Assembly: GCA_016342685.1 (NCBI GenBank)
Contig: JAEINU010000001.1
Span: 1,222,920 to 1,286,919 of the forward strand
Direction of reading: 5' to 3'
Source of the DNA: Bacteroidales bacterium
Lineage (GTDB): Bacteria > Bacteroidota > Bacteroidia > Bacteroidales > UBA12077
Length of the DNA stretch: 64,000 nucleotides
Every line of letters starts with the position of its first letter. Within the stretch, counting starts at the first letter, position 1. Made by a program: the position numbers and the translations under genes. Positions 6,267 through 33,304 of this stretch are shown here, piece after piece. The notes beneath the pieces were generated by a model. It was given only the letters and a program-made list of their open reading frames with translations. It had not been told where the DNA came from and did no database searches.

Positions 6267-7034
6267 TTGAAATCTGTAAAACATAGAACATCAACAATAT
6301 TCCTATTTCTTCTTATCGGAATTCTATTTTCATGTAATAAACATCAAGACCAGAGCATTGATGTTTTTGCTGCAGCAGGAACAATGCTTCCTGTAAATGA
6401 TATATGCAATTCATTTGAGATAAATCAAAACAATAATACAAATAGAAATTTTGCTGCTTCAGGAGCCTTAGCTCGACAGATTAATGCCGGCGCCGAAGCC
6501 GATATTTATATTTCGGCAAATAAGCAATGGATCGATTTTTTAATTCAGAATAATCTAGTAAATAAAGAAAACGTTTCTGAATTTGCATACAACAAGTTGG
6601 TTTTAATCACATCAGTAGATAATGATGTTTATATTGACTTTACACAAGATTTTGATATTGAGACTGCCATAAAGGATAAAATTTCAATTGGCAATCCAAA
6701 ATACGTTCCCGTAGGGAAATACGCGAAACAAATGTTTGATTCATTAAATTGGTACAATCAAATTCGAGATAAAATCATTCTGGCTAAAGATGTAACTTCA
6801 GTTTTACATTACGTCGAATTAGGCGAATGTGACTGGGGAATTGTTTATTATTCAGAAGCAATTAAGTCTGATAAGGTCAAAATAGCATACGAAATCCCTC
6901 AAAATCTTTATTCTCCAATTACTTTTTATATAGGTTTGTTAAATGATTGTGACAAGAATAGAAATCTTTATAATTATTTTAAAGGCGATCAATCAAAGGG
7001 AATTTTAGAGAAATACGGATTTACAATTCAATAA
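6267..7034 (+). CDS. modA: Molybdate ABC transporter substrate-binding lipoprotein
   Basis: Captures molybdate (or tungstate) outside the inner membrane for ModBC. The TTG at 6267 is chosen because it opens a lipoprotein signal (IFLFLLIGILFSC, lipobox LFSC). Family motifs are FAAAGTMLPVNDIC, the oxyanion-binding segment ASGALARQINAGAEADIY, and GECDWGIVYYSEA near the C-terminus. The 255-residue length is normal. modB starts 10 nt downstream, so modABC form one operon that runs into the xanthine dehydrogenase genes. That context ties molybdate uptake to molybdenum hydroxylases. No molybdenum-responsive operator was recognised. Confidence 0.93.
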   Translation: MKSVKHRTSTIFLFLLIGILFSCNKHQDQSIDVFAAAGTMLPVNDICNSFEINQNNNTNRNFAASGALARQINAGAEADIYISANKQWIDFLIQNNLVNKENVSEFAYNKLVLITSVDNDVYIDFTQDFDIETAIKDKISIGNPKYVPVGKYAKQMFDSLNWYNQIRDKIILAKDVTSVLHYVELGECDWGIVYYSEAIKSDKVKIAYEIPQNLYSPITFYIGLLNDCDKNRNLYNYFKGDQSKGILEKYGFTIQ

Positions 7035-7044
7035 GAAAATATAA

Positions 7045-7728
7045 ATGTTTAGTCCAGAAGAAATAACGGTAATTGTTTTAACCTTGAAAGTAGCGTTCCT
7101 TAGCACTCTTTTAACTCTACCAATTGCAATATGGCTTGGGTGGATTCTTGCAAGAAAAAATTTTATTGGTAAATTTCTAGTTGAAGGATTAGTCAACATC
7201 CCATTAGTTGCTCCACCTGTAGTTACTGGATATCTACTTTTATTATTATTAGGGAAAAATGGAATAGTTGGAAGTTGGCTGTACGAATCACTAGGAATTA
7301 AATTAGCCTTTAATTTTGCAGCACTTATAATCGCATCGGTTGTGGTTTCTTTGCCATTAGCAGTTCGCAGCACAAAATCAGCATTTGAATTGGTTGATCC
7401 AAATTACGAAAAAGCATCTAATTCATTAGGAGCATCAAAAATCGAAACTTTTTTTAGAGTGTACTTGCCTTTAGCTTTTCCAGGCATATTGAGCGGAGCC
7501 GTTTTGGCCTTTGCTCGCAGTTTAGGCGAATTTGGAGCCACTATATCTTTTGCTGGTAATATTTATGGTAAAACTCAAACAATTGCCTTGAATGTATATT
7601 CTAATATGCAAATCCCAGGAAAAGAAATGCAAGTTACGAGACTTGTTATCGTATCGCTTGTAATTTCTCTTATAGCAATTATTGCATCTGAATATTTGAA
7701 TAAAAAGAAAAAATATTTTGTAAGATGA
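7045..7728 (+). CDS. modB: Molybdate ABC transporter permease
   Basis: Inner-membrane channel subunit of the molybdate importer. The 227-residue protein has about five transmembrane helices. The inner-membrane permease loop that contacts the ATPase is visible as AFARSLGEFGATISFAGN. The segment IPLVAPPVVTGYLLLLLLG is characteristic of ModB. Its stop overlaps the start of modC by 4 nt, indicating translational coupling. Confidence 0.94.
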   Translation: MFSPEEITVIVLTLKVAFLSTLLTLPIAIWLGWILARKNFIGKFLVEGLVNIPLVAPPVVTGYLLLLLLGKNGIVGSWLYESLGIKLAFNFAALIIASVVVSLPLAVRSTKSAFELVDPNYEKASNSLGASKIETFFRVYLPLAFPGILSGAVLAFARSLGEFGATISFAGNIYGKTQTIALNVYSNMQIPGKEMQVTRLVIVSLVISLIAIIASEYLNKKKKYFVR

Positions 7729-8897
7729 TAATTAAATTAGAATCGGTTGAACATAAACTTGGACACAATCATTTCAATTATGATTTCTGCACTGATAGTT
7801 CCATAACTGGAATATTTGGTCCATCTGGTGCAGGAAAAACAACTTTATTCAATTTGATATCAGGAGTTGACACCCCAATTAATGGCAAAATAGAGCTTAA
7901 TAACGAATCTTTATTAGATGTAAGTAAAAATATTAACATAAAGGGTAAAAATCGAAACATTGGCTATGTATTTCAAGAAAATCATTTATTCCCACATTTA
8001 TCTGTAAAAAAGAATTTGTTGTATAGCAAACCTTATATAAGGAATAAAGAAGAATATATTTCTTTTAATGATGTTATAAGTCTTTTGGAAATTTTGCCTT
8101 TATTGAATAAAAAGCCTAGACAACTTTCTGGTGGTGAGCGTCAAAGAGTTGCAATTGGAAGAGCGCTTCTCTCCCAGCCCAGATTACTTTTACTAGATGA
8201 ACCATTCTCTAATGTAGACTGTTCTAAAAGAAAGCAAATAATATCCTATTTGCTTCGAATCAATAATCATTTTAAAATTCCAATGTTAATTATTAGTCAC
8301 CATTTGGAAGATATATTAAAACTTACACGAAAGATTGTAGTTATTGAAAATGGTAAATCGACTGATGCAGAAGATATATTTACAATCATTAAAAACGACG
8401 AAAACCCTGAATTAATTCGACCTAAAAAATTCCAGAACACTTTTAAAGTCAGATTAAAGCAATATTCAGAAATTGATAAAACATACGATCTAATATCAGG
8501 CGATGGTGTTGAAATTAAAATCTCAAATCATTCTAAATTATTGAATACAGATTTACAAAAAGAAACCAAAATTCAATTAAGCCTTAGACCTATTGATGTT
8601 GCTCTTAGTCTCGAAAAACACCAAGGAATTAGTGTGCAAAATCAATTGAAAGGAACAGTAAAACAAATTATTAAAAATACAGAAGGAATATTTTGTGTGG
8701 TTGATTGTGGTTTTGAGCTTTTTGTTGAAATATCGCAAGGAATAATCAATACTTTATTCTTACACGAAGGACAATCAATTTATTGTCAGATAAAAGCCAA
8801 TGATTTTGATGTTGTTCATGTATTTGAAAATCTAAATTCAAATAAAACAAAGCACTCTAAAACTATTGAATTAGTTAACAACCTAAACGAATCTTAA
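7725..8897 (+). CDS. modC: Molybdate ABC transporter ATP-binding protein
   Basis: ATPase that powers molybdate import. The 390-residue protein shows Walker A GPSGAGKTTL, the Q-loop in IGYVFQENHLFPH, the signature LSGGERQRVAIGRALL, Walker B LLLLDEPFSNVD, and the switch histidine in LIISHHLEDI. A C-terminal TOBE/Mop-like oxyanion-binding domain starts near residue 280 (SLRPIDVALSL...QLKGTVKQI), as in ModC. The xanthine dehydrogenase genes start 18 nt downstream. Confidence 0.93.
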   Translation: MIIKLESVEHKLGHNHFNYDFCTDSSITGIFGPSGAGKTTLFNLISGVDTPINGKIELNNESLLDVSKNINIKGKNRNIGYVFQENHLFPHLSVKKNLLYSKPYIRNKEEYISFNDVISLLEILPLLNKKPRQLSGGERQRVAIGRALLSQPRLLLLDEPFSNVDCSKRKQIISYLLRINNHFKIPMLIISHHLEDILKLTRKIVVIENGKSTDAEDIFTIIKNDENPELIRPKKFQNTFKVRLKQYSEIDKTYDLISGDGVEIKISNHSKLLNTDLQKETKIQLSLRPIDVALSLEKHQGISVQNQLKGTVKQIIKNTEGIFCVVDCGFELFVEISQGIINTLFLHEGQSIYCQIKANDFDVVHVFENLNSNKTKHSKTIELVNNLNES

Positions 8898-8915
8898 TTT
8901 TTTAACAAACCGATT

Positions 8916-10316
8916 ATGATTACATTTATTCTAAATGATAAAACCATACTAACCGATAGCCATCCTGGAACAACGCTTCTTGATTTTATTCGTTATGGTG
9001 AAAATATGCCAGGCACAAAGATTGGATGTCGAGAAGGTGATTGTGGAGCTTGTACGGTTCTGGAAGGAACTCTTGAAAATAATAAAGTATTATATAAAAG
9101 CATCGTATCCTGTCTTACTCCATTAGGAAATGCACAAGGCAAACACATTGTTACCATTGAAGGTGTAAACATGAAAGAATTATCGCCTGTGCAAAATGCA
9201 ATGGTTGAAAATGCTGGAACTCAGTGTGGTTTTTGCACTCCTGGTTTTGTAATGTCTCTTACTGGTCATGGACTTTCTGAAGAACAATCAACACACGAAA
9301 AAGCAATTGCGGCAATTAGTGGCAATATTTGTAGATGTACAGGATATAAATCAATTGAAAAAGCGGCTGCAAGTATCTCTGAATTGTTAAAATTAAAAGA
9401 TATTTCAGATCCAATAAATTGGATGGTAGAAAACAAATTCTTACCTGAATATTTTCTAAAAATTGGTGATCAATTGAAGCAAATTCAGTCAAATACAAGT
9501 ACATCTGAAAATAATCAAATTATTGGTGGGGGAACTGATTTGATGGTTCAAAAACCAGAAGAAATAGAAGAAACTGATATTAACTTATTTTATAATAGAA
9601 ACGATTTAAAGGGAATTAGAAAAGAAAACGATTCTATAATTATAGGATCTGCCACAAGTGCGAGCGAGATTATGAATTCTGAAATAATTCAAGAATATTT
9701 TCAGAATATTAAAGAACATTTCAAGTTAATTTCATCGGAGCCAATTCGAAATATGGGAACTATAGCAGGTAATTTTGTAAATGCTTCTCCTATTGGAGAT
9801 TTAAGCATATTCTTTCTTGCATTAAATGCGAATATCATTATCAAAGAATCAAATAATTCTCGGGAAATTCCATTAAAGAATTTCTTTTTAGATTATAAAA
9901 AAATAGATTTAAATAAAGGTGAATACATCGAAACTGTTATAATTCCTATTTCAAAATCTGAGTTTAAGTTCAATTTCGAAAAAGTAAGTAAGCGCACTCA
10001 TTTAGATATTGCCAGCGTAAACTCTGCAATTTCCTTTAAATTAATTGATGACACTATAGAAGAATGTTCTGTTTCAGCTGGAGGAGTTAGTGCCATTCCA
10101 AAATATTTACTGAAGACATCTGAATATTTAATTGGCAAAAAGATTTCCAATGGAACTGTTATTAAAGCAAGCAAAATACTACAAGAAGAAATCTCTCCAA
10201 TTACTGATGTCCGTGGAAGTTCTGATTATAAAAGACTTTTATTGAGACAATTATTCTTTGCTCATTTCATAAAGCTTTGTTCCAAAAGCATATCATTAAA
10301 CGAATTATTAAGCTAA
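8916..10316 (+). CDS. xdhA: Xanthine dehydrogenase small subunit (2Fe-2S + FAD)
   Basis: Electron-transfer subunit of a bacterial two-subunit xanthine dehydrogenase, passing electrons from the molybdenum centre through two 2Fe-2S clusters to FAD. The 466-residue protein has a plant-type ferredoxin domain (Cys38, Cys43, Cys46, Cys66) and the second cluster domain (CGFC at 104-107 and CRC at 139-141). A FAD-binding domain from about residue 200 shows IIGGGTDLMVQ and IRNMGTIAGNFVNASPIGD, and the FAD C-terminal domain ends the chain. The partner subunit follows after 13 nt. The physiological substrate could be another purine or aldehyde; xanthine/hypoxanthine is favoured by the neighbours. Confidence 0.9.
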   Translation: MITFILNDKTILTDSHPGTTLLDFIRYGENMPGTKIGCREGDCGACTVLEGTLENNKVLYKSIVSCLTPLGNAQGKHIVTIEGVNMKELSPVQNAMVENAGTQCGFCTPGFVMSLTGHGLSEEQSTHEKAIAAISGNICRCTGYKSIEKAAASISELLKLKDISDPINWMVENKFLPEYFLKIGDQLKQIQSNTSTSENNQIIGGGTDLMVQKPEEIEETDINLFYNRNDLKGIRKENDSIIIGSATSASEIMNSEIIQEYFQNIKEHFKLISSEPIRNMGTIAGNFVNASPIGDLSIFFLALNANIIIKESNNSREIPLKNFFLDYKKIDLNKGEYIETVIIPISKSEFKFNFEKVSKRTHLDIASVNSAISFKLIDDTIEECSVSAGGVSAIPKYLLKTSEYLIGKKISNGTVIKASKILQEEISPITDVRGSSDYKRLLLRQLFFAHFIKLCSKSISLNELLS

Positions 10317-10329
10317 ACAGAAAGAAAAG

Positions 10330-12582
10330 ATGAAAAATATAGATTCTAAAAATCACGTTACCGGAAAATCTGTTTATGTTGATGATATCCCAGTACAAAC
10401 GGGCACTTTATTTGGTGCTGTATTTGGTTCTCCTATAGCACATGGAAAGATAAAAGATTTAGATTTATCAGAAGCTGAAGCTTTAGAAGGCGTTGAAAAA
10501 ATATTCACATACAATGATATTCCTGGAAGAAATCAAATTGGTGGTATAATTGAAGACGAGCCTCTCTTAGCTGAAAATGAAGTTCATTTTATTGGACACC
10601 CTGTTGCTATTATTGTTGCCAAAAGTGAGATTATTGCAAGAAAAGCAACTAAACTTATTAAAATAGATATCGAAGAACTAGAAATTATAACTGATCCGAG
10701 AGTAGCTCAACAGAAAGGACATTTATTAACTCCCCCACGTACATTTAAGATGGGAAACATCTCAAACGAATGGGAGAAATGCGAATCTATTTTTGAAGGT
10801 AAGGTAGAAATTGGTGGACAAGAACATTTATATATTGAAACTCAAGGTTCTTATGCCTATCCCATAGATAATGGAAGTATTAAAATTCATTCTTCAACAC
10901 AAGGAGCTACTCTAGTCCAGAAAATGGCTGCACAGATATTGGGTTTACCAATGCACCGGATTGAAGTAGATGTTGCTCGTTTGGGTGGTGCTTTTGGGGG
11001 CAAAGAAGATCAAGCTACACCTTACGCTTGTATGGCTGCCCTGGCTTCGTTCATCTTACAAAAACCTGTTAAAATAAGTTTACATCGATTAGATGATATG
11101 CAAATGACTGGAAAACGCCATCCATACAGTTGCGATTTTAAAATTGGATTTTCGAAAGATTATAAAATCCTTGCATATCAAACGAAAATGTACCAAAATG
11201 GCGGTGCTGCTAACGATCTGTCTCCTGCAATTACAGAACGAACATTATTTCATTCCACAAATTGCTATTTTATTCCAAATACGGAAGTTACAGTGTACAG
11301 TTGTAAAACAAACCTGCCACCTAATACCGCTTATAGAGGGTTTGGGGCTCCACAAGGAATGTTTGTGATAGAATCAGCAATTGCAAAAGCTGCTTGTGAA
11401 TTGAATGTTTCAAGAAGAATGATTCAGGAAAAAAACTCTCTAAAAGAAAATGATCTATTTCAATATAGCCAAATTGCTGAAAATGTAAATATTGGCAATT
11501 GTTTTAAAGAAGCCAATAAGACTTACAATATTGAACAAATAGAAAAGGAAATTGAAGAATTTAATTCCCAAAATACTAATTATAAAAAGGGAATGTCGAT
11601 TATGCCTATCTGTTTTGGGATTTCTTTTACTAAAACACCTATGAATCAGGCACGTGCTTTAGTTCATATTTATCAGGACGGTAGTATTGGAATAAGTACC
11701 GGTGCTGTTGAAATGGGGCAAGGTGTAAATACAAAAATGATTCAGGTTGCAGCCAAAGTATTTTCAATTAATACCAATAGAATTAAAATCGAATCGACGA
11801 ATACAACACGTGTTGCAAATACATCTCCTACGGCGGCGAGTTCTGGTGCAGATTTAAACGGAAATGCTTTACTTATAGCTTGCAATAAACTTTTGGAAAG
11901 ATTAATTGAGACAGCAGCTAAAATGCTTTCGTGCAATTATACTGAGATCAACATAGAAAATGAGACCGTTTTAAAAAACAGCAAGAAAACAGAAATTTCT
12001 TGGGAGCAATTAATTGAAACTGCATTTTTAGATCGAGTTTGCCTTACAGAAAATGGTCATTATGCAACGCCTATTATTAACTTCGATAAATCAAAAGAAA
12101 CGGGTCATCCATTTGCGTATCATGTTTATGGAACGGCTATCATAACAGTTACCTTGGATTGTATTCGTGGAACATACGAATTTGATGATGTAAATATTGT
12201 TCACGATTTTGGGAATAGCATGAATACAACAATTGACAATGGACAAGTTGAAGGTGCTGTTGTGCAAGGAATTGGTTGGACAACCATGGAAGAGCTTGCT
12301 TTTGCTAAAGATGGACGATTATTATCGAATAGTTTATCAACTTATAAAGTTCCAGATATTTATTCAGTGCCTAAAAACATTCGTATTACTGCTTTAAAAA
12401 CGGAAGGTCCTGAATTAGCATTATTACGTTCAAAAGCCATTGGCGAACCACCTTTTATGTATGGTATTGGTGCGTATTTTGCATTAACAAAAGCTATCCG
12501 AGCATTTAATTCAAACTATAAATTAGATTTCGATACACCAATGACTCCTGAAAAAGTTTTAATGAGATTATATCAAGAATAG
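10330..12582 (+). CDS. xdhB: Xanthine dehydrogenase molybdopterin-binding subunit
   Basis: Catalytic subunit carrying the molybdenum cofactor; hydroxylates purines using water. Of its 750 residues, the a/b-hammerhead domain lies at about 10-120. The molybdenum-binding domains show LGGAFGGKEDQATPYAC, YRGFGAPQG, GAVEMGQGVNTKM, and the catalytic glutamate in AIGEPPFMYGIGAYFA. Length and motif order match XdhB. It ends the modABC-xdhAB operon and faces the MocA-like gene convergently. Confidence 0.91.
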   Translation: MKNIDSKNHVTGKSVYVDDIPVQTGTLFGAVFGSPIAHGKIKDLDLSEAEALEGVEKIFTYNDIPGRNQIGGIIEDEPLLAENEVHFIGHPVAIIVAKSEIIARKATKLIKIDIEELEIITDPRVAQQKGHLLTPPRTFKMGNISNEWEKCESIFEGKVEIGGQEHLYIETQGSYAYPIDNGSIKIHSSTQGATLVQKMAAQILGLPMHRIEVDVARLGGAFGGKEDQATPYACMAALASFILQKPVKISLHRLDDMQMTGKRHPYSCDFKIGFSKDYKILAYQTKMYQNGGAANDLSPAITERTLFHSTNCYFIPNTEVTVYSCKTNLPPNTAYRGFGAPQGMFVIESAIAKAACELNVSRRMIQEKNSLKENDLFQYSQIAENVNIGNCFKEANKTYNIEQIEKEIEEFNSQNTNYKKGMSIMPICFGISFTKTPMNQARALVHIYQDGSIGISTGAVEMGQGVNTKMIQVAAKVFSINTNRIKIESTNTTRVANTSPTAASSGADLNGNALLIACNKLLERLIETAAKMLSCNYTEINIENETVLKNSKKTEISWEQLIETAFLDRVCLTENGHYATPIINFDKSKETGHPFAYHVYGTAIITVTLDCIRGTYEFDDVNIVHDFGNSMNTTIDNGQVEGAVVQGIGWTTMEELAFAKDGRLLSNSLSTYKVPDIYSVPKNIRITALKTEGPELALLRSKAIGEPPFMYGIGAYFALTKAIRAFNSNYKLDFDTPMTPEKVLMRLYQE

Positions 12583-12586
12583 TTTA

Positions 12587-12638
12587 AAGTTTCTAGTTCC
12601 AAGTTCTCGATTTTAAAAAGGACTTAGAATTAGAAACT
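12587..12638. terminator. Inverted repeat between convergent xdhB and mocA-like genes
   Basis: AGTTTCTAGTTC (12588-12599) mirrors GAATTAGAAACT (12627-12638) with one mismatch around a ~27-nt loop. It overlaps the last codons of the minus-strand gene. It could act as a bidirectional terminator, although the T-tract is poor. Confidence 0.4.
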
Positions 12639-13238
12639 AAAATACATCTCGTATTCTTCCTTAGTATTAATATTTACTAGAATTTTCTCATCATTAACCT
12701 GAACCTTTTCTCTAGAGTATTGATTCAAAAATTCTTTCAAATGAAGTTTATCTTCTTGAGATGATCTTATATCATTAATTATATTTTGCGAAAGCAAAAA
12801 AGGATGTCCCCCTTTTTCATTATAACTTGGATTTACATAATCTCCTTTTGCAGAATAGCTCACCAAACTTTCTAAAACCTTCACATTTACAAAAGGATTA
12901 TCAACATTGTGAATAAAAGTAGAACATTCTTTAGAAAGTGACTTCGCTCCTACTTTTAACGAATAAAACCGATGCCAGTTCGTATGTGTATTAACGACTA
13001 TTTTAATATTTTCTGGAAACTGAATATCATTTTCTATTAAATACTTTTTCCCTTGATTATTTACTACAATTATTATTTCTCTACAACCAAATTCCCCGAA
13101 CTCTTCAACAATATGCTCAATAAATATCTCATTTTCATTATATCTTAACGAAAGTTTTGGGAAGCCCATTCTTGATGATTCTCCAGCGGCCAATACAATA
13201 GCAGAAAATTCTTTTAGTTGAGTATTATTTTGCTTCAT
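12630..13238 (-). CDS. MocA/MobA-like nucleotidyltransferase for molybdenum cofactor
   Basis: Likely attaches a nucleotide (CMP in MocA) to molybdopterin, making the cofactor used by xanthine-dehydrogenase-type enzymes. The N-terminal signature IVLAAGESSRMGFPKLSL is diagnostic of the family, and the metal-binding region appears as FIHNVDNPFVN. ATG 13238 places this motif near residue 15 as usual; an earlier in-frame start at 13265 is less likely. It faces xdhB and neighbours ygfK, matching E. coli mocA in the same kind of cluster. Family is firm; the nucleotide used is inferred. Confidence 0.85.
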   Translation of the reverse strand: MKQNNTQLKEFSAIVLAAGESSRMGFPKLSLRYNENEIFIEHIVEEFGEFGCREIIIVVNNQGKKYLIENDIQFPENIKIVVNTHTNWHRFYSLKVGAKSLSKECSTFIHNVDNPFVNVKVLESLVSYSAKGDYVNPSYNEKGGHPFLLSQNIINDIRSSQEDKLHLKEFLNQYSREKVQVNDEKILVNINTKEEYEMYFSF

Positions 13239-13393
13239 CTTTTTCCTGAAATTAAGTATAAACATAGGAGATATTTAAGAATCTCAGCTGTTTTATGTAG
13301 ATTTGTTTTGTTAGTACTTTTTGTGAATTCAATTAGAATCATTGCTCAAAATTAATTCATAATTTGTAATTATTAATTCTAAATTCATTTAGT

Positions 13394-16300
13394 ATGTCAG
13401 ATAAATTTTTTCCTATATCAATAAAGCAATTATTGCAAATAATTTTGAAAGAATACAATAATAAACAAAGTATTTTTGGTATTCCTGAAGAATTATTTTT
13501 CGATTCCAGTAAAGAGATTCACTTAAAAGTCGATCAATTCAATCAAACCATTGATTCTCCTTTAGGTGTAGCAGCTGGACCTCATTCTCAAATGGCGCAA
13601 AATATAATTGGTGCATGGTTAATGGGTGCTCGTTACATTGAACTAAAAACAATACAAACGCTCGATGAACTTGATGTAAATAAGCCTTGTATCGACATGC
13701 AAGACGAAGGTTATAATTGTGAGTGGTCGCAAGAATTGAAAATCAAGGAAAGCTTTAATGAGTATTTAAATGCTTGGATCATTATTCATATTCTGAACCA
13801 TAGGTTCGGATGGAATAAAGAAATGGGGACAATTTTCAATATGAGTGTAGGATACAATTTGGAAGGTATTTTAAAAGATAATGTACAATGGTTTTTTACA
13901 AAAATGAATGATTGTTCTTCAGAAATGAAAGAACAAATCAAACAAATTAAAGAGATTTATCCTGAAGTTAATGCAATTGAAATTCCGAATCAGATTTCTA
14001 ATAACATTACGCTTTCAACTATGCATGGTTGTCCTGCAAATGAAATTGAAGATATTGCAAAATATTTATTAGAAGAAAAAAGTCTACACACTTTTGTTAA
14101 GTTAAATCCAACTTTACTCGGATCCGAATTTTTAAGAGAGATTTTAAACGATAAATTAAACTTTAAAACCAATGTTCCCGATATAGCATTTGAACATGAT
14201 TTAAAATACGATGATGCCTTAAAAATCATCAGATCATTGCAAGAAACTGCGAAGCAAAAAGAACTTCAATTCGGATTAAAGCTTACAAATACACTTGAAT
14301 CGGCAAACAATAAAACAGTATTTGGATCAGCAATAGATATGATGTACATGAGTGGTCGTGCTTTGCATCCAATTTCTATTAACGTAGCAAAAAAACTGCA
14401 AAACGAATTTAAAGGTGAATTACAATTATCCTTTTCTGGAGGGGCAGATGCATTCAATATTTCAGATATCCTTTCAAGCGGATTTAAAACTGTAACTGTT
14501 TCCTCAGATATATTGAAGCCTGGTGGATATATGCGTTTAAATCAATATTTTGAAGAAATAAATTCAAATAATACATTAATTAATTTAGATAAAAAAATTG
14601 TACTTGAAAATCTGAATAAATATGCCGAAAAAGTTTTAGATTCTAATCTTTATAAAAGAAAATCAATTAAAGATCCTGATATCAAAACTGAAAGAAACTT
14701 AGGTTATTTCGATTGCATATCAGCTCCTTGTAAGGATACTTGTGCTACAAATCAAGATATTCCAAATTATCTATATTATTCTTCGAAAGGTAAGTTCGAT
14801 AAAGCCTATGAAGTAATACTAAAAACAAACCCTTTCCCTTCGATTACAGGTATGGTTTGCGATCATTTATGCCAGAACAAATGTACACGGATTAATTATG
14901 ACAACTCGCTGTTAATTCGTGAAGTAAAACGATTTATATCTGAGCAAGAAGAAGTAAAACTTAGTTTCAACAATAAGAATAATCTAAAAGTAGCTGTAGT
15001 TGGCGCTGGTCCATCGGGATTATCTTGTGCTTACTATTTGGCTCTGGCAGGTTTTAAAGTTGAAGTTTTTGAAGCAAATTCTAAAGCTGGTGGAATGGTT
15101 CAATATGCAATTCCAGGATTTAGATTAACCGATGAAGCTATTAATAAAGATTTCAAAAGAGTTACCGATTTAGGTGTTCAAATTCATTATAATCAAGAAA
15201 TTAATAGGGAGAAATTTCAAACTCTAAGAACAAATTACAACTACTTATTTGTAGGTGTTGGAGCGCAACTTTCTGCTCCTTATAAATTGAATGGAATTGA
15301 TACGATTGGGGTATTAGATTCTCTTAAATTTTTATTCCAGGCTAAAAAACAAGAAGAATCGGGAATTGGTAAAAATGTTGTAATTATTGGTGGTGGAAAT
15401 ACAGCTATGGATGCAGCAAGAACAGCTTATCGTTTGGTTGGAAAAGATGGTAGTGTAACGATTGTTTATCGTCGTACAATGAATGAAATGCCTGCCGATC
15501 AGGGCGAGATTAAGGCAGTGATTGAAGAAGGAATGAAGATTATTGAATTAGCCGGACCTGAAAAAGTAATTCAGAGAAACGGTAAAGTTAAAGCCTTGCT
15601 TTGTAGTAAGATGGATTTACAGGAATCAGATTCTTCAGGTAGACCAAGACCTGTAAAAATTGAAGGTTCAGAATTTGAAATTTCATGTGATACCATAATA
15701 CCAGCTATTGGACAAAAACTCAATATCGATTTTATTCAAGAAGAACTATTAAAGGCCAATACAAATAATTATCAAACTCAAATTGAAAATATATTTATCG
15801 GCGGTGATGCTTTACGTGGTGCAGCAACAGCAATTAAAGCTATTAGCGATGGACGAAGAGCTGCCGAGCAAATTATTAAAAAGTCTGAGATTGATTTCAG
15901 CACTTACAAACACTTAATTGCTAAAGATTTAAGCAAAAAGGAACTTGTTCTTAAAAGAGCCAAAAGACAATTTGCTCCCGAGTTAGTTGAATTAGATATT
16001 AATGATCGCAAGAATTTTAAATTGGTTAGCGAAACTTTAGATCAAGAAACTATTGTAAATGAAGCTGAACGTTGTTTGCAGTGCGATGAAATTTGCAATA
16101 TATGCACAACAGTTTGTCCTAACTTTGCTAATTATTCCTATGAGATTGAACCTGTGACTTATTATCTGCAAAAAGCAATTCAACTAAATAACGGAGAAAT
16201 TGAAATTCGAAACGAAGGATTATTTGAAATAAACCAAAAACATCAAATATTGAATATTGCAAATTTCTGTAATGAATGCGGAAATTGTAACACCTTCTGC

Positions 16301-17050: not shown

Positions 17051-17512
17051 TTACAGAATAAAATTCTGCTTCACTTTATTTTCTGACATTACAAACGAAC
17101 TATAGAATTGAGTGATGTTACCAATTGTAGAAAATTTGTTGGTAATAAAATGATGGAAATCTTCCATATCATTACAAAAAACTTTTACAAGAAAATCTGA
17201 GCTTCCAGATATGTAATAGGATTCCATTACAGCATCTAACTTTTCCATTTGGTTTTCAAACTCTAAAATAGCTTCTTTAGTATGTTTATTTAATGATACC
17301 GAAATATAAACGATCAGTTTTTTTCCAATCATTTTTGGATCAACCAATGTAATATACTGCTTTATATAACCGTTCTTTTCAAGCTTTTTAATTCGTTCAT
17401 GAATAGGCGTTGTTGATAAATGTAATTTTTCAGACAACTCTCTAATCGTTATTCTACTGTTAGTCTGCAATATATTCAGCAATTTCTTATCAATTTCGTC
17501 TAATGCTTTCAT
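17051..17512 (-). CDS. Lrp/AsnC-family transcriptional regulator
   Basis: Feast/famine-type DNA-binding regulator that responds to amino acids or related small molecules. The 153-residue protein has the N-terminal helix-turn-helix (DEIDKKLLNILQTNSRITIR, then TPIHERIKKLEKNGYI). A RAM ligand-binding domain covers about 70-150 (AVMESYYISGSSDFLVKV). It is transcribed divergently from the PLP-enzyme gene at 17680 and sits in the middle of the purine cluster. It is the best local candidate for controlling that gene and perhaps the cluster; the effector is unknown. Confidence 0.9.
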   Translation of the reverse strand: MKALDEIDKKLLNILQTNSRITIRELSEKLHLSTTPIHERIKKLEKNGYIKQYITLVDPKMIGKKLIVYISVSLNKHTKEAILEFENQMEKLDAVMESYYISGSSDFLVKVFCNDMEDFHHFITNKFSTIGNITQFYSSFVMSENKVKQNFIL

Positions 17513-17679
17513 GTTAGTTTATTTTTCTGTTACTATAAATCTAATATTGTACAAATATAATATATTCCTTTGACATTTGCAATTACCAGGAAAATTTACC
17601 ATACTTTTATTTATATAAAGAATAGTACTATATTATTCGTAAATTGCAAAGCATAATAATCTACACAAAAATTCATAGA

Positions 17680-23260: not shown

Positions 23261-24526
23261 ATGATTCTATTAAAAAATGCAACATATATAGATTGGAAAA
23301 CCTTAGAATTCAAGAATACAAATATTCTTGTTGAAGAAGGTATTTCAGGTAAAATAAAACTGATCGATAATTCGGATTCAGTTACAACTGATCAAATAAT
23401 TGACTGCAAAGGAAAAATAGTAACTAAATCGTTTGCTGTTGGACATCATCATGTATATTCTGCATTATCACGTGGAATGGGAGCTCCAAAAAAGAACCCA
23501 GAGAATTTTTACGAGATTCTTCAGTATGTTTGGTGGACTTTGGACAAAGCTTTGGATAAGGATATGATTGAAGCAAGCGCTCTTGCTACAGCTATGGCAT
23601 GTGCAAAAGCTGGATCTACTTTTGTGATTGATCATCATGCATCGCCAAACTTAATTTTAGGCTCGCAAGATATTATTGCAAAAGCATTCAATAAAGTTGG
23701 GGTAAGTCATTTACTATGTTATGAAATTACAGACAGAGACGGAATCGAAAAAGCTGAAGAGGGTTTATCTGAAACTGAGAATTATTTAAAATCGAATCAA
23801 GGATTAGTTGGCTTGCATGCATCATTCACCGTAAATGATGAAATCATGAGAAGATCGGCAGATCTTATGAATAAATACAATTCAGGATTTCATATTCATG
23901 TTGCAGAAGATTTGTATGACCAAAGACATTGTCATGATAATTATGATAAACGAGTTGTTGAACGTTTAAACGATTATGGCGTTTTAAACTCGTCTAAAAC
24001 CATTCTAGGACATTGTTTACATATTGATGAAAATGAACGAAAAATCATCAAAAATTCTAAAGCTTTTGTAGTTCAGAATATGGAAAGTAACTTGAATAAT
24101 AAAGTGGGTTATTTTAACGCTAAAGATTTAGGTAACAATACTATACTTGGAACCGATGGAATGCACAGCGATATGCTTCAAAGTGCAAAAGCTGCATTCT
24201 TTGTTGGTCAGGGTTTCGATACAATTGGATACGACTCAGCTTATGAGCGTTTCAGAAAAGTACACGACTACATTTCAATGAATCAGTTTGATGGAGATGG
24301 AGAAAATAACCTTGTAATTTTGGATTACGACTCTCCTACCGAAATAAATCAAAATAACTTCTTAGGTCATTTTATATTTGGAATCAATTCAAATCATGTA
24401 AATGATGTAATTTCAAATGGAGAAGTTATTGTTAGAGATCGTAAGATACAAAAAGTAAATGAATCCGAGATTTTAGAATTCTCGAAAGAACAATCTTTAC
24501 GTTTATGGAAAAAAATGCAAGAGTAA
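23261..24526 (+). CDS. ssnA: SsnA putative aminohydrolase
   Basis: Metal-dependent amidohydrolase/deaminase of the anaerobic purine-degradation gene set. The 421-residue protein shows the first metal motif as AVGHHHVYSALSRGMG, further ligands in FHIHVAEDL and LGHCLHIDENE, and the catalytic aspartate in LGTDGMHSDML. The block NFYEILQYVWWTLDKALD is typical of SsnA. It follows the XdhD-like gene after a repeat-containing 95-nt spacer. Cytoplasmic. Family confident; exact substrate inferred from the pathway. Confidence 0.92.
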   Translation: MILLKNATYIDWKTLEFKNTNILVEEGISGKIKLIDNSDSVTTDQIIDCKGKIVTKSFAVGHHHVYSALSRGMGAPKKNPENFYEILQYVWWTLDKALDKDMIEASALATAMACAKAGSTFVIDHHASPNLILGSQDIIAKAFNKVGVSHLLCYEITDRDGIEKAEEGLSETENYLKSNQGLVGLHASFTVNDEIMRRSADLMNKYNSGFHIHVAEDLYDQRHCHDNYDKRVVERLNDYGVLNSSKTILGHCLHIDENERKIIKNSKAFVVQNMESNLNNKVGYFNAKDLGNNTILGTDGMHSDMLQSAKAAFFVGQGFDTIGYDSAYERFRKVHDYISMNQFDGDGENNLVILDYDSPTEINQNNFLGHFIFGINSNHVNDVISNGEVIVRDRKIQKVNESEILEFSKEQSLRLWKKMQE

Positions 24527-24633: not shown

Positions 24634-24694
24634 AATATTCTTTTATCACTTTTATTCTTTTATCTTTACACTTTAATCTTTTTACTTGAATATC

Positions 24695-25327
24695 ATGGAA
24701 ATTAATATATTAGAATGGATTGGTTATGCTGCCTCAGTAATTATAGCTATATCCTTATCAATGAGCTCAATCGTAAAATTTAGATGGATAAATTTAATTG
24801 GAGCTACAACTTTTTCAACATATGGTTTTTTAATAGGAGCCTTGCCAGTTGGAGCCTTGAATGGCTTTATCGCAATTATTGATGTCTATTTTTTATACAC
24901 AATCTATAATAAAAAAGAAATATTTGAAACACTGGAAATTCGTGCTGATAACAAATATATATATCGTTTTCTGGAATTTCATGATAAAGAAATACAAAAG
25001 TACTTTCCTGGATTTGCTTATAAAGCGGAAATGAATACCATCAGTTTTTTTATCCTTAGAAATGCTGCTGTTACAGGATTATTTTTAGCTCACCGAGAAG
25101 ATGACAACGTTCTTAAAGTCGGATTAGATTACGTGATTCCTGAATACAGAGATTTTAAAAATGGAAAATTTATCTATCTGCGTTTAAGAAGAAAATTCAT
25201 CGATGATGGTTTTGATAAAGTAATGACTCCAGGAGACAGTTCAAAATATGTTAAGTATCTTAGGAAGATTGGATTTACTGAAGATAAAGCAGGTATGTAT
25301 GTAAAAATATTGGATAAATCGATTTAG
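24695..25327 (+). CDS. YgjV-like membrane protein with C-terminal GNAT-like region
   Basis: A 210-residue protein. ATG 24695 is used because the in-frame TTG at 24686 adds only three residues. The N-terminal ~85 residues form about three transmembrane helices (WIGYAASVIIAISLSMSSI, then WINLIGATTFSTYGFLIGA, then LNGFIAIIDVYFLYTIY), like the YgjV/SWEET-like small membrane family. The soluble remainder (about 95-210) ends KYVKYLRKIGFTEDKAGMYV, which recalls the last strand and helix of GNAT acetyltransferases. No catalytic motif can be stated. It lies between ssnA and the disrupted DUF1566 gene. Function unknown. Confidence 0.65.
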   Translation: MEINILEWIGYAASVIIAISLSMSSIVKFRWINLIGATTFSTYGFLIGALPVGALNGFIAIIDVYFLYTIYNKKEIFETLEIRADNKYIYRFLEFHDKEIQKYFPGFAYKAEMNTISFFILRNAAVTGLFLAHREDDNVLKVGLDYVIPEYRDFKNGKFIYLRLRRKFIDDGFDKVMTPGDSSKYVKYLRKIGFTEDKAGMYVKILDKSI

Positions 25328-28082: not shown

Positions 28083-29408
28083 ATGAATATTTTAATTCAA
28101 AATGGAACAATCGTAACATCTGAAAAATCAATTAATTCAGATATTTATATATCGGATGGTATAATACTTCAAATTGGTAATTCGCTGGATATTAACGATG
28201 AAATTGATAAAACAATTGATGCAGCTGGTAAACTCATTTTTCCGGGAGGAATAGATCCACACGTTCACATGCATCTTCCAACTCCTGCAGGTTTTTCTGC
28301 TGACGATTTTGAAACTGGAAGTAAAGCCGCTCTCAAAGGTGGTACTACAACTTTAATCGACTTTGTTACACCACATAAAGGTCAATCATTAATAGATGCT
28401 TTTATTGATCGAAAATCTGAAGCTGATAAATCGTTTTGCGATTATTCATTTCATATAAGTCCTGTTGAATGGACAAATACTACCGAACAAGAAATTAAAG
28501 ATTGTATTGAATCTGGAATCACTTCGTTTAAAGTCTATATGGCTTATAAGGATAGTATTGGTTTAGATAATGATGATATCTTGAAAGTAATGCAAATAGT
28601 TGGAGAAGCCGGTGGAATTGTAACCCTGCATTGCGAACTTGGAGATGAAATTGATGACTTGCGAAATGAATTAGCAAACAAAGGGAATTTAAGCTCTGAA
28701 TTTCATCCTTTTTCACGACCAGACTATACTGAAGCAGAAGCAGTAAGATCTGCCATAGAAATGGCATCAATTGCAAATTGTCATATATACATTGTTCATA
28801 CATCATGTGCAAAATCAATTGACTATATTAAAAAAGCACAAAAGGATGGTCAAGTAGTTTATTCTGAAACTTGTCCGCAATATTTGATTTTAGATGATTC
28901 AAAATATTTAGGTGATTTTAAGGATACCTCCAAATATGTAATGAGTCCACCCTTGCGCAAAAAGAAAGATCAACATGCTCTTTGGGATGCCATAAACACA
29001 GGAGTTATTAAGACTGTTGGAACAGATCATTGTCCTTTTAATCTTGAACAAAAAGAAAAGGGAATTCATGATTTTAGGATGATTCCTAATGGAGCGGGTG
29101 GTGTTGAGCACAGAATGACTTTGCTTTTTACTTATGGTGTATTACAAAATAGAATTACATACAATCAATTTGTTGATGTTACATCAACACAAGCTGCAAA
29201 GATTTTTGGTTTGTATCCTCAAAAAGGTGAAATATCTGTTGGATCCGATGCTGATTTGGTGATTTGGAATCCTAAAGCTGAAAATACGATATCCGTTGCG
29301 AATCATCATCAAAACTGCGATCTTGAAATATATGAAGGAATAAAAACCATCGGAGCTCCCGAATTCGTTATCTCAGACGGAGAAATTGTTGTTGAGAATG
29401 AGAATTGA
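28083..29408 (+). CDS. hyuA: Dihydropyrimidinase/hydantoinase-type amidohydrolase
   Basis: Zinc amidohydrolase that opens cyclic ureides. The 441-residue protein shows the metal motif GGIDPHVHMHLPTP, the carboxylated-lysine segment TSFKVYMAYKDS, histidine ligands in VTLHCEL and IVHTSCA, and the metal aspartate in VGTDHCPFNLEQKEKG. It begins 88 nt after the IS-split gene and is part of the purine-ring-opening set. E. coli hyuA occupies the equivalent place. Other family members act on dihydropyrimidines, which is possible but less favoured here. Confidence 0.9.
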   Translation: MNILIQNGTIVTSEKSINSDIYISDGIILQIGNSLDINDEIDKTIDAAGKLIFPGGIDPHVHMHLPTPAGFSADDFETGSKAALKGGTTTLIDFVTPHKGQSLIDAFIDRKSEADKSFCDYSFHISPVEWTNTTEQEIKDCIESGITSFKVYMAYKDSIGLDNDDILKVMQIVGEAGGIVTLHCELGDEIDDLRNELANKGNLSSEFHPFSRPDYTEAEAVRSAIEMASIANCHIYIVHTSCAKSIDYIKKAQKDGQVVYSETCPQYLILDDSKYLGDFKDTSKYVMSPPLRKKKDQHALWDAINTGVIKTVGTDHCPFNLEQKEKGIHDFRMIPNGAGGVEHRMTLLFTYGVLQNRITYNQFVDVTSTQAAKIFGLYPQKGEISVGSDADLVIWNPKAENTISVANHHQNCDLEIYEGIKTIGAPEFVISDGEIVVENEN

Positions 29409-29440
29409 TTTCAGAAAAGAAAAGACGGTTCTTAAAAAGA

Positions 29441-29506: not shown

Positions 29507-29511
29507 CTATT

Positions 29512-29670: not shown

Positions 29671-29680
29671 TTACTCAAGA

Positions 29681-29712
29681 AAAAAGAGTAGGCTTAAAAA
29701 CCTACTCTTTTT
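29681..29712 (-). terminator. Terminator of ygeW/ygeY transcript
   Basis: AAAAAGAGTAGG (29681-29692) pairs with CCTACTCTTTTT (29701-29712). On the minus strand the hairpin overlaps the ygeW stop codon and is followed by a U-rich run. Confidence 0.75.
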
Positions 29713-30881
29713 TTATCCCTTTTAAGGATATTATCTAATACTTCACTTGGCTTTTCAAATTTGTTTGTAAACATCATTGAAGCAATAATGTATGGTTTAA
29801 ATCCGGCTTCCAGATAAGTTTTAATTTTATATTTCTCAAATACATCACCATCAACTTCACCATCTTCGCATGAAACACCGCTAATGTCAGCAGGTAAACA
29901 GTGCATATACAATGCATCCTGATTTTTGGTTAGTTTCATTTTAGCTTCGTCGTATTCCCAATCCTTATGCTTCGCATTATTTGCTAGACAGGTTTGTTCT
30001 AATGCTTTTAAGCCTTCAACGTCTTTATTCTTTAATAATTCTGTACGTTGCTGCATTATATGGAATGGAGCCCAGCTTTTTGGATATACAATATCCGCAT
30101 CTTTCATTGCTTCTTCCATATTATGACTAATATTGAATGATCCACCGCTTTCTTCTGAGTTTTTCTTTGCGATATCTACTATTTCAGGAATTAACTCATA
30201 TCCTTCAGGATAAGCTAACTCAATATCCATTCCGTAACGAGACATTAAACCAATTATACCTTGTGGCACTGACAATGGTTTTCCGTAACTTGGCGAATAT
30301 GCCCAGCTCATTACAATTTTTTTACCTTTCAAGTTCTCTAAAGAACCAAACTCTTTTTCCAAATGCATTAAATCAGCCATTGCTTGTGTTGGGTGATCCT
30401 GATCACATTGTAAATTTACAATTCCAGGACGAGATGGTAATACACCTTCTTTAAATCCTTCATCTAATGCATCTCCTACTTCACGCATGTATTTATTTCC
30501 TTCGCCAAGATACATATCATCACGAATTCCAATAAAATCTGATAAGAAAGAAATCATGTTTGCAGTTTCACGAACAGTTTCTCCGTGAGCAATTTGCGAT
30601 TTTTGCTCATCTAAATCTTGAACAGCACAACCCAATAAATTACTTGCCGATGCAAACGAAAAACGTGTACGTGTTGAGTTATCTCGGAAGTTTGAAATTG
30701 CTAATCCTGAATCGAAAACTGATGGAGAAATATTGTTATCTCTCATTTCCTTTAAGATTTCAGCAACTTCTAATATAGCTTTTAAATCTTCTTTGCTTTT
30801 TTCCCAGGTCAGTAAAAAATCCTTTTTGTAAAGATCAGTCTTTAACTCACCTAGTTTGTTTATCTTATCTTGTAAACTCAT
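29694..30881 (-). CDS. ygeW: YgeW knotted carbamoyltransferase
   Basis: Member of the aspartate/ornithine carbamoyltransferase superfamily found with anaerobic purine catabolism; thought to act phosphorolytically on a ureido compound to give carbamoyl phosphate. Of its 395 residues, the carbamoyl-phosphate motif is FRDNSTRTRFSFASA, the second is NLQCDQDHPTQAMADLMHL, and the substrate-loop motif is MHCLPADISG. Length matches YgeW rather than OTC (about 310-335). It lies 17 nt downstream of ygeY on the same strand, forming a two-gene operon that converges with hyuA. No carbamate kinase gene is nearby. Confidence 0.92.
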   Translation of the reverse strand: MSLQDKINKLGELKTDLYKKDFLLTWEKSKEDLKAILEVAEILKEMRDNNISPSVFDSGLAISNFRDNSTRTRFSFASASNLLGCAVQDLDEQKSQIAHGETVRETANMISFLSDFIGIRDDMYLGEGNKYMREVGDALDEGFKEGVLPSRPGIVNLQCDQDHPTQAMADLMHLEKEFGSLENLKGKKIVMSWAYSPSYGKPLSVPQGIIGLMSRYGMDIELAYPEGYELIPEIVDIAKKNSEESGGSFNISHNMEEAMKDADIVYPKSWAPFHIMQQRTELLKNKDVEGLKALEQTCLANNAKHKDWEYDEAKMKLTKNQDALYMHCLPADISGVSCEDGEVDGDVFEKYKIKTYLEAGFKPYIIASMMFTNKFEKPSEVLDNILKRDKKRVGF

Positions 30882-30898
30882 AAATTTTCTTTTTTAAA

Positions 30899-32086
30899 TT
30901 AAATCTCGTAAGCAAAAGCTGCGTAAAATGCCGATGCCACAACTAAATCATCAATTGCAACTTTTTCGTTTGGAGCATGCGCTAAAACCTCATTCCCAGG
31001 ACCAAAACCAATTGTTGGAATTCCATAAACTCCATTGGTCATAATTCCATTGGTAGAAAATGTCCACTTATCGATATTCACATCTTTATTAAAAAGATTT
31101 TTGAATGAACGAACTCCAGTTTGAACTATTTCATGCTCTACCGGAATTTTCCATGTTGGATAATATTTTTCCATTCCATATTCTAAACCTGTATAAGCAG
31201 TTTCCAAATATTCTAGAACTTCCACTTTTGCATTCATCCCTTTTATTAACTCTTCGATTTCTGCAACCGCAGATTCCTTAGTTTCGCCCCAAGTTAAACG
31301 ACGATCCAAGTGAATTCGTGCATAATCAGAAACAGCGCATAACGAAGGACTTCCAGAAATAATTTCAGAAATAGTAACACTTCCTTTACCTAAAAACTCA
31401 TCAAATTTCAATCTTTCATGTAATTGTTCAATTTCCAAAGCTGTTTTTGATGCCATATAAATAGCATTCTTTCCTCGTTCTGGAGCTGAACCATGCGATG
31501 AAACGCCATAAAAATGAACATGCATTTCCATACGTCCACGGTGACCACGATATATATTTAAATTTGTAGGCTCTGTACTAATTACAAAATCGGGTTTAAT
31601 TTTATCTTCTTCAACAATGTATTTCCAACATAAACCATCACAATCTTCTTCAATAACACTTCCAACAAAATAAATTGTAAGATCTTTATCGAAACCTAAT
31701 TCTTTCAAAATTCTACCTGTAGTAACAAATGCTGCGGGTCCACCCTCTTGATCGACAGTACCACGCCCATGAACAAAACCATCTTTAATTTCTCCACCAA
31801 GTGGATTAAAGTCCCAATTATCCATGTTACCCATATCCACTGTATCCATGTGTCCATCAATTGCAAGAATCTTCTTTCCATTTCCTATTCTTCCAATTAC
31901 ATTCCCCAAACCATCAATGTTTACTTCATCAAAGCCAGCTTCTTCCATCTGTCTTTTAAGTTCTAGCTGAACTTCTTTTTCTCCTAAACTTAATGATTTG
32001 ATTTGCACTAATTTTGATAAATTTTCTGCGGTATAATCACGATACTTCTCAGATAAATCGTTGATCTTTTGAAAGATATTTTCCAT
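30899..32086 (-). CDS. ygeY: YgeY M20-family metallohydrolase
   Basis: Dinuclear zinc amidohydrolase of the M20 peptidase family, annotated elsewhere as putative selenium-metabolism hydrolase. The 395-residue protein shows AIDGHMDTVDMG, the bridging aspartate in GRGTVDQEGG, the catalytic glutamate pair in GSVIEEDCDGL, and ISTEPTNLNIYRGHRGRME. It probably hydrolyses a ureido amide intermediate in purine breakdown. First gene of the ygeY-ygeW operon, divergent from xdhC. Family firm; substrate inferred from the cluster. Confidence 0.92.
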   Translation of the reverse strand: MENIFQKINDLSEKYRDYTAENLSKLVQIKSLSLGEKEVQLELKRQMEEAGFDEVNIDGLGNVIGRIGNGKKILAIDGHMDTVDMGNMDNWDFNPLGGEIKDGFVHGRGTVDQEGGPAAFVTTGRILKELGFDKDLTIYFVGSVIEEDCDGLCWKYIVEEDKIKPDFVISTEPTNLNIYRGHRGRMEMHVHFYGVSSHGSAPERGKNAIYMASKTALEIEQLHERLKFDEFLGKGSVTISEIISGSPSLCAVSDYARIHLDRRLTWGETKESAVAEIEELIKGMNAKVEVLEYLETAYTGLEYGMEKYYPTWKIPVEHEIVQTGVRSFKNLFNKDVNIDKWTFSTNGIMTNGVYGIPTIGFGPGNEVLAHAPNEKVAIDDLVVASAFYAAFAYEI

Positions 32087-32318
32087 ATTATTTCTATTCT
32101 AAATTATTCAAGTGCTAAAGTTACATTTTTTATCTTATCCAATAAATAAACAGGATAGTTTTATACATTTCTCTTTTTAATATAGAATTATCGAATATAT
32201 ATTTAAATATTACAAGAATTTTATTCTATCATTAGATCATAAAGTCAAAAAAGAATCTTCAATTTATTGTTAAATCATAAAAACTGCATTTAAAGAAGCA
32301 AAATTACCTAATTCATTG

Positions 32319-32326
32319 TATTTTTG
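32319..32326 (+). promoter_or_regulatory. Candidate Bacteroidota -7 element upstream of xdhC
   Basis: TATTTTTG matches the Bacteroidota TAnnTTTG element and lies 28 nt before the chosen xdhC start. No clean TTTG -33 element was found at the usual spacing, so this is tentative. Confidence 0.3.
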
Positions 32327-32353
32327 ATATGCAAAAATCAAAATTGTTGTATT

Positions 32354-33304
32354 ATGGATATTTGGAATTTTATACAAAAAGAATTGTCAGAAAATAATAA
32401 TGTAATGCTAATTACAGTTGTTGAGAGAAATGGAAGTAGCCCCGGAATTGTGGGTTTTAAGATGGCAGTATCTGCAACTGGAGCAATGACAGGCTCAATT
32501 GGTGGTGGTGTTATGGAGTACAATATGGTTGAACTAGCAAAGAAAGAAGCAAAAAGTGCTACTCAAAAATCATTTATAAAAAAACAAATTCATAAAGCAG
32601 ATGCTGGAAAGGATAAATCGGGATTAATATGCTCAGGAGATCAAACACATTCTTTTACTCTCTTTGATTCTTCAAAAGAGGAACTCATTAATAGTATTAC
32701 ATCACTTTTGAATAAAGGAGAAAATGGAGCTCTTTACTTAAAGCAATCTGGTGTAGAATTTGATAAAAACAAAAAACTTGAAAATCAAATAGATTATGCG
32801 TGCGAAGATGAAAATAATTGGGTTTACAGAGAACAAATTGGAGTAAAACCAACAATGTACATTTTTGGAGCAGGACACGTTAGTTTACCTTTAAGCGAAA
32901 TTTTTAGAGTCCTAGATTTTAAAGTAGTGATACTAGACGACAGAGAAGGTCTCTCGACATTTGAAAACAACAAACACGCACATCAAAAACACATTATTGA
33001 TTATAAAAACCTTGGTGACATTGTTGAAGAAGGTGGTAATAGTTATGCTGTAATAATGACTGTTGCTCATAAAAGTGATGCCGCTGTTTTGAAACAATTG
33101 GTTCAAAAAGATTTAAAATATCTTGGAATGATAGGTAGTAAAAACAAAGTAAAGAGTATTTACGAATTACTTATGAATGAAGGCGTTTCGGTTGAAGAAT
33201 TGGCTAAAGTAGATTCACCGATAGGACTTCCTATAAAAAGTAAGACAACAGCTGAAATTGCAATTAGTATAGCAGCAAAAGTAATTGAAGTTAAGAATTG
33301 TTAA
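32354..33304 (+). CDS. xdhC: XdhC-family molybdenum-hydroxylase accessory factor
   Basis: Matures xanthine dehydrogenase by binding molybdenum cofactor and promoting its sulfuration and insertion. The 316-residue protein (ATG 32354 chosen; an upstream extension has no features) shows the XdhC/CoxI N-terminal domain (VVERNGSSPGIVGFKMAV, GSIGGGVMEYNMVELA). A C-terminal Rossmann domain follows (MYIFGAGHVSLPLSEIFR, VVILDDREGLSTF) with GMIGSKNKVKSIYELL. Divergent from ygeY, and the right edge of the molybdenum/purine island. A strong terminator follows. Confidence 0.9.
   Translation: MDIWNFIQKELSENNNVMLITVVERNGSSPGIVGFKMAVSATGAMTGSIGGGVMEYNMVELAKKEAKSATQKSFIKKQIHKADAGKDKSGLICSGDQTHSFTLFDSSKEELINSITSLLNKGENGALYLKQSGVEFDKNKKLENQIDYACEDENNWVYREQIGVKPTMYIFGAGHVSLPLSEIFRVLDFKVVILDDREGLSTFENNKHAHQKHIIDYKNLGDIVEEGGNSYAVIMTVAHKSDAAVLKQLVQKDLKYLGMIGSKNKVKSIYELLMNEGVSVEELAKVDSPIGLPIKSKTTAEIAISIAAKVIEVKNC

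Follow-up and report, generated by a model that had tools for sequence, protein, structure and literature searches.

A urate degradation island of a Bacteroidales genome with two pyridoxal phosphate enzymes in the probable place of YgeX

The window considered here is a stretch of 64,000 nucleotides from the genome of a Bacteroidales bacterium (assembly GCA_016342685.1, contig JAEINU010000001.1), and between positions 6267 and 33304 it carries an island of purine catabolic genes. Judged from its sequence, this island probably serves the anaerobic breakdown of urate by the reductive (yanthine) route, in a form in which two pyridoxal phosphate (PLP) enzymes, here named PLP-A and PLP-B, replace the lyase YgeX. 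PLP-A and PLP-B are the most telling genes of the island and, along with orf213, an Lcl_C-domain gene and an IS110-family transposase, they went unmentioned in an earlier note on this DNA, which had described a complete-looking anaerobic urate and xanthine island. Anaerobic urate/xanthine catabolism is still the best reading, enzyme families of the reductive pathway of 2025 other than YgeX and YgfM are matched, and the genes that had been named are intact open reading frames that match their families. The description "complete-looking" has to be given up, as in a genome of 100% completeness there is neither a YgeX over the family cut-off nor a YgfM, and measured against the published pathway the island is therefore incomplete.

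The reductive urate pathway was worked out biochemically in 2025 with enzymes of E. coli and C. difficile (PMC12507026; commentary PMC12990295), and since the island holds enzymes of the same kind it can be regarded as a version of that pathway. In the published scheme XdhD-YgfM reduces urate to 2,8-dioxopurine, YgfK dearomatises this product, SsnA and HyuA open the ring, YgeW and YgeY strip the ureido groups and YgeX splits the 2,3-diaminopropionate that is left, yielding pyruvate and ammonia in E. coli (PMC12507026). What is already known is the pathway; what would be new is a Bacteroidota form with a PLP pair, probably at its last step.

Good support for assigning the pair to the pathway comes from the distribution of its genes in a single set of 395 Bacteroidota genomes, searched with four queries (PLP-A at E <=1e-30, PLP-B at E <=1e-70, YgeY and YgeX over their family cut-offs). 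PLP-A and YgeY are each carried by 35 genomes, PLP-B by 34 and YgeX by 10; YgeY and PLP-A share 34 genomes, 33 of which also have PLP-B, and all 34 PLP-B genomes also carry PLP-A. YgeX is found in seven of the 35 YgeY genomes and is over its cut-off in none of the other 28. Fisher tests against YgeY, which ignore shared ancestry, give p values of 8e-47 for PLP-A, 1e-44 for PLP-B and 2e-6 for YgeX, and the PLP-A carriers are spread over nine family-level groups. PLP-A tracks YgeY more closely than YgfK does, because YgfK is over its cut-off in just 19 of the 395 genomes, all of them YgeY genomes. There are few departures from this pattern: genome G146 has YgeY without PLP-A, its YgeY being 39% identical to that of the window, with no other urate-set gene in the 20 kb examined around it; genome G326 has both PLP genes without YgeY, its PLP-A being only a fragment, at the end of a contig; and a YgeY match under the cut-off in genome G254 was left uncounted.

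Linkage follows the same lines. In 27 of 34 genomes no more than 20 kb separates PLP-A from ygeY, and in 25 the two genes share a strand; in the remaining seven they are on different contigs. PLP-B is as close to ygeY in 24 of 33, with eight of the other nine on other contigs, and YgeX in none of the seven genomes that have both it and YgeY. Twenty of the 35 PLP-A places, excluding that of the window, were examined with their surroundings, and each has one or more further urate-set genes by similarity, including L071, among the shortest of the stretches, which holds ygeY and an xdhC relative; PLP-B is present in five of the 20. In two neighbourhoods (L067 and L068) the order is ygeW-PLP-A-ygeY, which matches the ygeW-ygeX-ygeY of E. 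coli (NC_000913), and the other 18 differ. Four urate clusters (L059, L061, L063 and L068) have a PreA/UacX-like protein where a full-length YgfK would be expected and retain PLP-A, and the genomes of these four give no YgfK match at E 1e-100. Around YgeX itself in the seven YgeY genomes (a short stretch about one gene in each) there is no other urate-set gene, nor is there one in the wider stretches from four of the seven, two of which reach only 10-12 kb. As an aside, the YgeX genes of L094 and L095, which lie away from urate clusters, share a 560-aa neighbour in two genomes.

PLP-A (17644..19164, + strand) is a fold-type II PLP enzyme of family PF00291 which is like cysteine and cystathionine synthases when compared with solved structures, with a C-terminal extension; a methionine conserved in its relatives suggests that its real start is at 17680, giving a protein of 494 aa. 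PLP-B (19369..20619, + strand) is a threonine-synthase-like member of PF00291, the fold family to which YgeX also belongs. Against the YgeX profile the whole of PLP-B can be aligned (probability 99.2), whereas the alignment of PLP-A is partial and weak (probability 85.7) and leaves the catalytic lysine outside the aligned part. The PLP-A loop STGNYCRGGA resembles TDGNHGRGVA of E. coli YgeX but lacks the aspartate of the latter. In a tree of the PLP superfamily (49 rows) PLP-A, PLP-B and YgeX form three separate groups, and as the deep nodes join long branches these were not used as evidence of descent. AlphaFold2 models made with 11 close relatives for each protein were dropped as too poor (mean pLDDT 34 for PLP-A and 57 for PLP-B).

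These features bear on the strongest competing explanation, namely that the pair acts in the pathway with a chemistry unlike that of YgeX, for example beta-replacement of diaminopropionate or albizziin, or direct elimination of urea from a mono-ureido intermediate, leading to another end product. We regard this as possible but unlikely. The closest solved relatives of PLP-A, the cysteine and cystathionine synthases, are beta-replacement enzymes, the aspartate of the YgeX loop is missing, and two enzymes have been retained where a single lyase would suffice; against this, the pair is coupled almost perfectly to YgeY, the published product of which is diaminopropionate (PMC12990295), and in two of the 20 neighbourhoods PLP-A sits between ygeW and ygeY. 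Beta-elimination of diaminopropionate by at least one of the two enzymes would still seem the most likely chemistry.

A collection of plasmids was also searched with PLP-A. Matches are found in 59 records, of which only two, from Rhizobium and Bosea, cover at least 80% of the query; these distant relatives are 42-43% identical to it, each with an M20-family gene at a distance of about 6 kb, and on the Bosea plasmid a RidA-family gene lies 1.2 kb from the PLP-A relative. RidA proteins clear 2-aminoacrylate, the product expected of a lyase of this type. At E 1e-3 neither M20 protein has similarity to any of 45 reference proteins, YgeY included, and neither has a relative in the related loci or the window; at E 1e-4 the Bosea RidA finds only itself among the related loci and the window. 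The plasmid context is therefore only a faint hint of what PLP-A does.

It could also be supposed that PLP-B is an ordinary threonine synthase and PLP-A a cysteine-synthase-like enzyme, both in the island by chance. PLP-B does exceed the cut-off of the threonine synthase family (TIGR00260, 203.9 against 167.1), and no PF14821-type threonine synthase was found in the genome. Yet it lacks the arginine that stands two residues before EGQKT (NPYRIEGQKT) in all five solved threonine synthases aligned, which we take to bind the substrate phosphate, this position being threonine or leucine in ten of ten PLP-B sequences, and the loop GNAGN of threonine synthases (GNLGN in the plant enzyme) is replaced by GDG. 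Four cysteines at the N-terminus of PLP-B are invariant in ten sequences. Its gene runs into that of xdhD, the two having 4 bases in common, and a housekeeping role sits poorly with its presence at E 1e-70 in merely 34 of 395 genomes, every one with PLP-A, so that this explanation is improbable. Separately, the same genome encodes a protein of the cysteate synthase family (TIGR03844, 488 against a cut-off of 325) at L023:1183-2472 on contig C23.

About equally hard to sustain is the idea that the island serves another substrate, such as selenate or a different N-heterocycle, rather than urate. The NCBIfam names for YgfK and SsnA are linked to selenium, in keeping with an older naming as "selenate reductase", and the genome has two SelD genes over the cut-off, the second of which (L087:656-2872, contig C5) shares a single 739-aa frame with a NifS/IscS-like cysteine desulfurase. 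However, the E. coli relatives of the island enzymes have been shown in vitro to act in urate degradation (PMC12507026), and the xanthine dehydrogenase genes are linked to the others.

Least probable is that YgeX is present but was missed, being unassembled or highly diverged, and that the pathway is simply that of E. coli: the 4.77 Mb genome is indeed split over 54 contigs, but its completeness is 100% (contamination 1.84%), and YgeX does not exceed its cut-off in 28 of the 35 genomes with YgeY, while in none of the remaining seven is it close to ygeY. A search of the whole genome with the YgeX model (TIGR01747, cut-off 274) gives no match over the cut-off, the best being PLP-B at 37 bits, and neither PLP enzyme reaches the cut-off; as a control, one of 14 control genomes exceeds it, and just two of them, E. 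coli and Deinobacterium, give a match at E 1e-30.

To return to a urate route in which the PLP pair replaces YgeX, a number of observations weigh against it. The XdhD-role enzyme is without a FAD partner, and the score of SsnA is under both SsnA cut-offs. The likeness of PLP-A to YgeX is weakly marked, as the aligned part leaves out the catalytic lysine and the TDGN aspartate is not kept (STGN), and two enzymes would have to stand in for one. PLP-B may have a second, biosynthetic role in threonine formation, which redundancy does not argue against because the genome has no PF14821-type enzyme. As to the distribution, the p values take no account of ancestry, the PLP-B count depends on the chosen threshold of E 1e-70 (the weakest match listed is 3e-79), and the seven YgeY genomes with a YgeX elsewhere could use it. 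Finally, genome G156 has YgeY and PLP-A without PLP-B at the threshold; its PLP-A lies beside ssnA and a three-gene xanthine dehydrogenase on one contig, and ygeY-ygeW lie on another.

The following scheme assigns the individual reactions by analogy with the published E. coli work. Imported molybdate would supply two molybdenum hydroxylases, of which XdhAB would oxidise hypoxanthine and xanthine to urate and the XdhD-role enzyme would reduce urate to 2,8-dioxopurine. YgfK would then reduce the ring, and SsnA and HyuA would open it to give 2,3-diureidopropionate. YgeW may take one ureido group off as carbamoyl phosphate, from which an unlinked carbamate kinase could form ATP, and YgeY the other, giving 2,3-diaminopropionate. 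PLP-A and PLP-B would stand in the place of YgeX in this genome, as in almost every YgeY-carrying Bacteroidota genome of the sample, and one or both would carry out the beta-elimination of diaminopropionate; the second may act on the other stereoisomer, racemise the substrate or take a mono-ureido intermediate. We infer the chemistry of the pair, as we do the conversion of urate to yanthine by the XdhD-role enzyme and the electron-transfer partner that this enzyme would use. We see even chances that Bacteroidota complete the reductive urate pathway by means of two PLP enzymes outside the YgeX family, which may form another product or divide the stereoisomers between them.

The hydroxylase in the XdhD role (20616..23165, + strand) combines molybdenum and FeS domains (Pfam) without a FAD domain and belongs to TIGR03311 (883 against a cut-off of 830), falling far below TIGR03313 (224 against 1102), presumably the model for E. 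coli XdhD. A GE motif, whose glutamate we take to be catalytic, is kept near its C-terminus. Its identity to E. coli XdhD is 25.6%, about as low as the 25.63% published for the C. difficile and E. coli proteins (PMC12507026). The FAD subunit YgfM has to be counted as missing, since the only PF00941 domain of the genome sits in xdhA of the island.

Of the other enzymes that would act on the purine, YgfK (13394..16618, + strand), a yanthine reductase by the E. coli work, exceeds the cut-off of TIGR03315 (954 against 835), as do HyuA, the hydantoinase (28083..29408, + strand; TIGR02033, 538 against 393), YgeW, a knotted carbamoyltransferase (29694..30881, - strand; NF005538, 690 against 453) and YgeY, an M20 hydrolase (30899..32086, - strand; NF009555, 521 against 321) for their own families. 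SsnA (23261..24526, + strand), the ring-opening aminohydrolase by the E. coli work, scores 386 against 444 for NF005540 and 338 against 455 for the second SsnA model, with the next family at 115 bits, and it has the metal-site motifs HxH, HIHxAED and GTDG in common with the E. coli protein. Identities to the E. coli proteins are 67% for YgeW, 51% for YgeY, 39% for HyuA, 36% for YgfK (1071 aligned columns) and 32% for SsnA.

A further group of genes is concerned with molybdenum. The importer genes modA-modB-modC (6267..8897, + strand) are all over the cut-offs of their NCBIfam models (TIGR01256, NF006939/TIGR02141 and TIGR02142), and are followed by xdhA (FeS and FAD) and xdhB (molybdenum) of a xanthine dehydrogenase (8916..12582, + strand), which score 365 with TIGR02963 (cut-off 467) and 791 with TIGR02965 (cut-off 849.5). 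A MocA-like molybdenum cofactor nucleotidyltransferase (12630..13265, - strand) reaches 111.6 bits with TIGR03310 (cut-off 186), and an XdhC-family maturation factor for molybdenum hydroxylases (32324..33304, + strand) reaches 216 with NF045664 (cut-off 350) and 129.5 with TIGR02964 (cut-off 161.6), with no match to TIGR03309 (YqeB) at E 1e-3. XdhA, XdhB, MocA and XdhC are, like SsnA, below cut-off, yet in each case the best match is a family of their own kind. Two further genes lie elsewhere in the genome: the carbamate kinase (TIGR00746, 371 against 358) is unlinked to the island and adjoins an ornithine carbamoyltransferase, and the single gene with Xan_ur_permease (PF00860), a candidate urate permease, is likewise unlinked.

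Gene order was compared in 13 related loci from Bacteroidota metagenome assemblies. The order mocA (reverse strand), ygfK, lrp (reverse strand), PLP-A, PLP-B, xdhD, ssnA is kept in seven of the 13, and it is because of this recurrence that the clustering of the island genes is not chance. In all but one of the 13 loci the lrp gene (17051..17512, - strand, in the window; Pfam HTH_24 and AsnC_trans_reg) comes after ygfK with a gap of at most 2.9 kb (in L010), which bears out the inclusion of an Lrp regulator in the earlier description; after lrp comes PLP-A in 11 loci and PLP-B in ten, with L007 and L011 ending too early to show the remaining genes. mocA is divergent to ygfK in nine of 13. In L008 ygfK is 63% identical to that of the window, and none of the other window genes is found in its 14 kb. 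The molybdate importer, which had been called dedicated, is attached upstream of xdhAB in three of the five loci with enough flank (L001, L010 and L009, the last with modBC only, at a contig edge), and is not upstream in L006 and L012, both of which reach far enough; it thus belongs to the neighbourhood in part of the relatives.

Between ssnA and hyuA the window contains orf213 (24686..25327, + strand), which has no Pfam family over the cut-off, then the Lcl_C-domain gene (25463-26608) upstream of hyuA and the IS110-family transposase (26870-27877) between that gene and hyuA. orf213 lies between ssnA and hyuA in six of the 13 loci and also follows ssnA in L001, making seven; hyuA directly follows orf213, with neither the Lcl_C gene nor the transposase, in six. 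In the intergenic region between lrp and PLP-A (17513-17676) the short blocks CAAATATA and TTGC are kept in all 11 aligned sequences (the window and ten relatives), and these blocks are a candidate promoter or Lrp site.

When set beside the E. coli cluster, which reads ygeW-ygeX-ygeY-hyuA-yqeA and mocA-ygfK-ssnA-ygfM-xdhD (NC_000913; PMC12507026), the window has in common the XdhD role, YgfK, a probable SsnA, HyuA, YgeW, YgeY, MocA and the xanthine dehydrogenase genes, but has two PLP enzymes instead of YgeX and is without YgfM; its hydroxylase is of the TIGR03311 type, modABC and Lrp are attached and carbamate kinase is unlinked. A comparable situation is seen in the C. difficile cluster, where single steps have been swapped for unrelated enzymes (UacX, UacY), and PreA-like proteins as in that variant also occur in other Bacteroidota clusters. 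The swap proposed for the window concerns the last step, for which C. difficile has retained YgeX (PMC12507026).

Nowhere does the main text of PMC12507026 contain the string "Bacteroid", and the phyla which that paper gives for SsnA are Pseudomonadota, Bacillota, Chloroflexota, Actinomycetota, Spirochaetota and Elusimicrobiota, without Bacteroidota; those given for the gene set in a passage of PMC12542679 are Actinobacteria, Bacillota, Fusobacteria and Proteobacteria, again without Bacteroidota. Among the papers listed in literature searches, neither the PLP pair nor Bacteroidota carriers of the gene set appear in titles or abstract openings, and an earlier mention is possible within PMC10421625, PMC12666987 or PMC10311284. 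The reductive urate pathway is of interest for gout, and a swapped last step, if true, would add two new enzymes where the matter had seemed settled. This would also be a warning against the use of ygeX as a marker, as in the detection rule of PMC12542679, since surveys based on ygeX would miss the variant, and against taking every nearby PF00291 gene for YgeX (PMC12507026, Figure 3g legend). Such a Bacteroidota version also bears on the question raised in PMC12990295 of whether the pathway arose in ancient times or as a recent adaptation to the gut. To judge by assembly names, some of the Bacteroidota carriers are probably from sediments or groundwater and not from guts, and if the two-enzyme reading is true, the pathway would have a greater age and a wider spread than an adaptation to the gut.

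In the window as a whole, no tRNA was detected, and no non-coding RNA at gathering scores. Outside the island, at 54613-56868, a single 751-aa frame joins ankyrin repeats to a Lactamase_B_3 domain.

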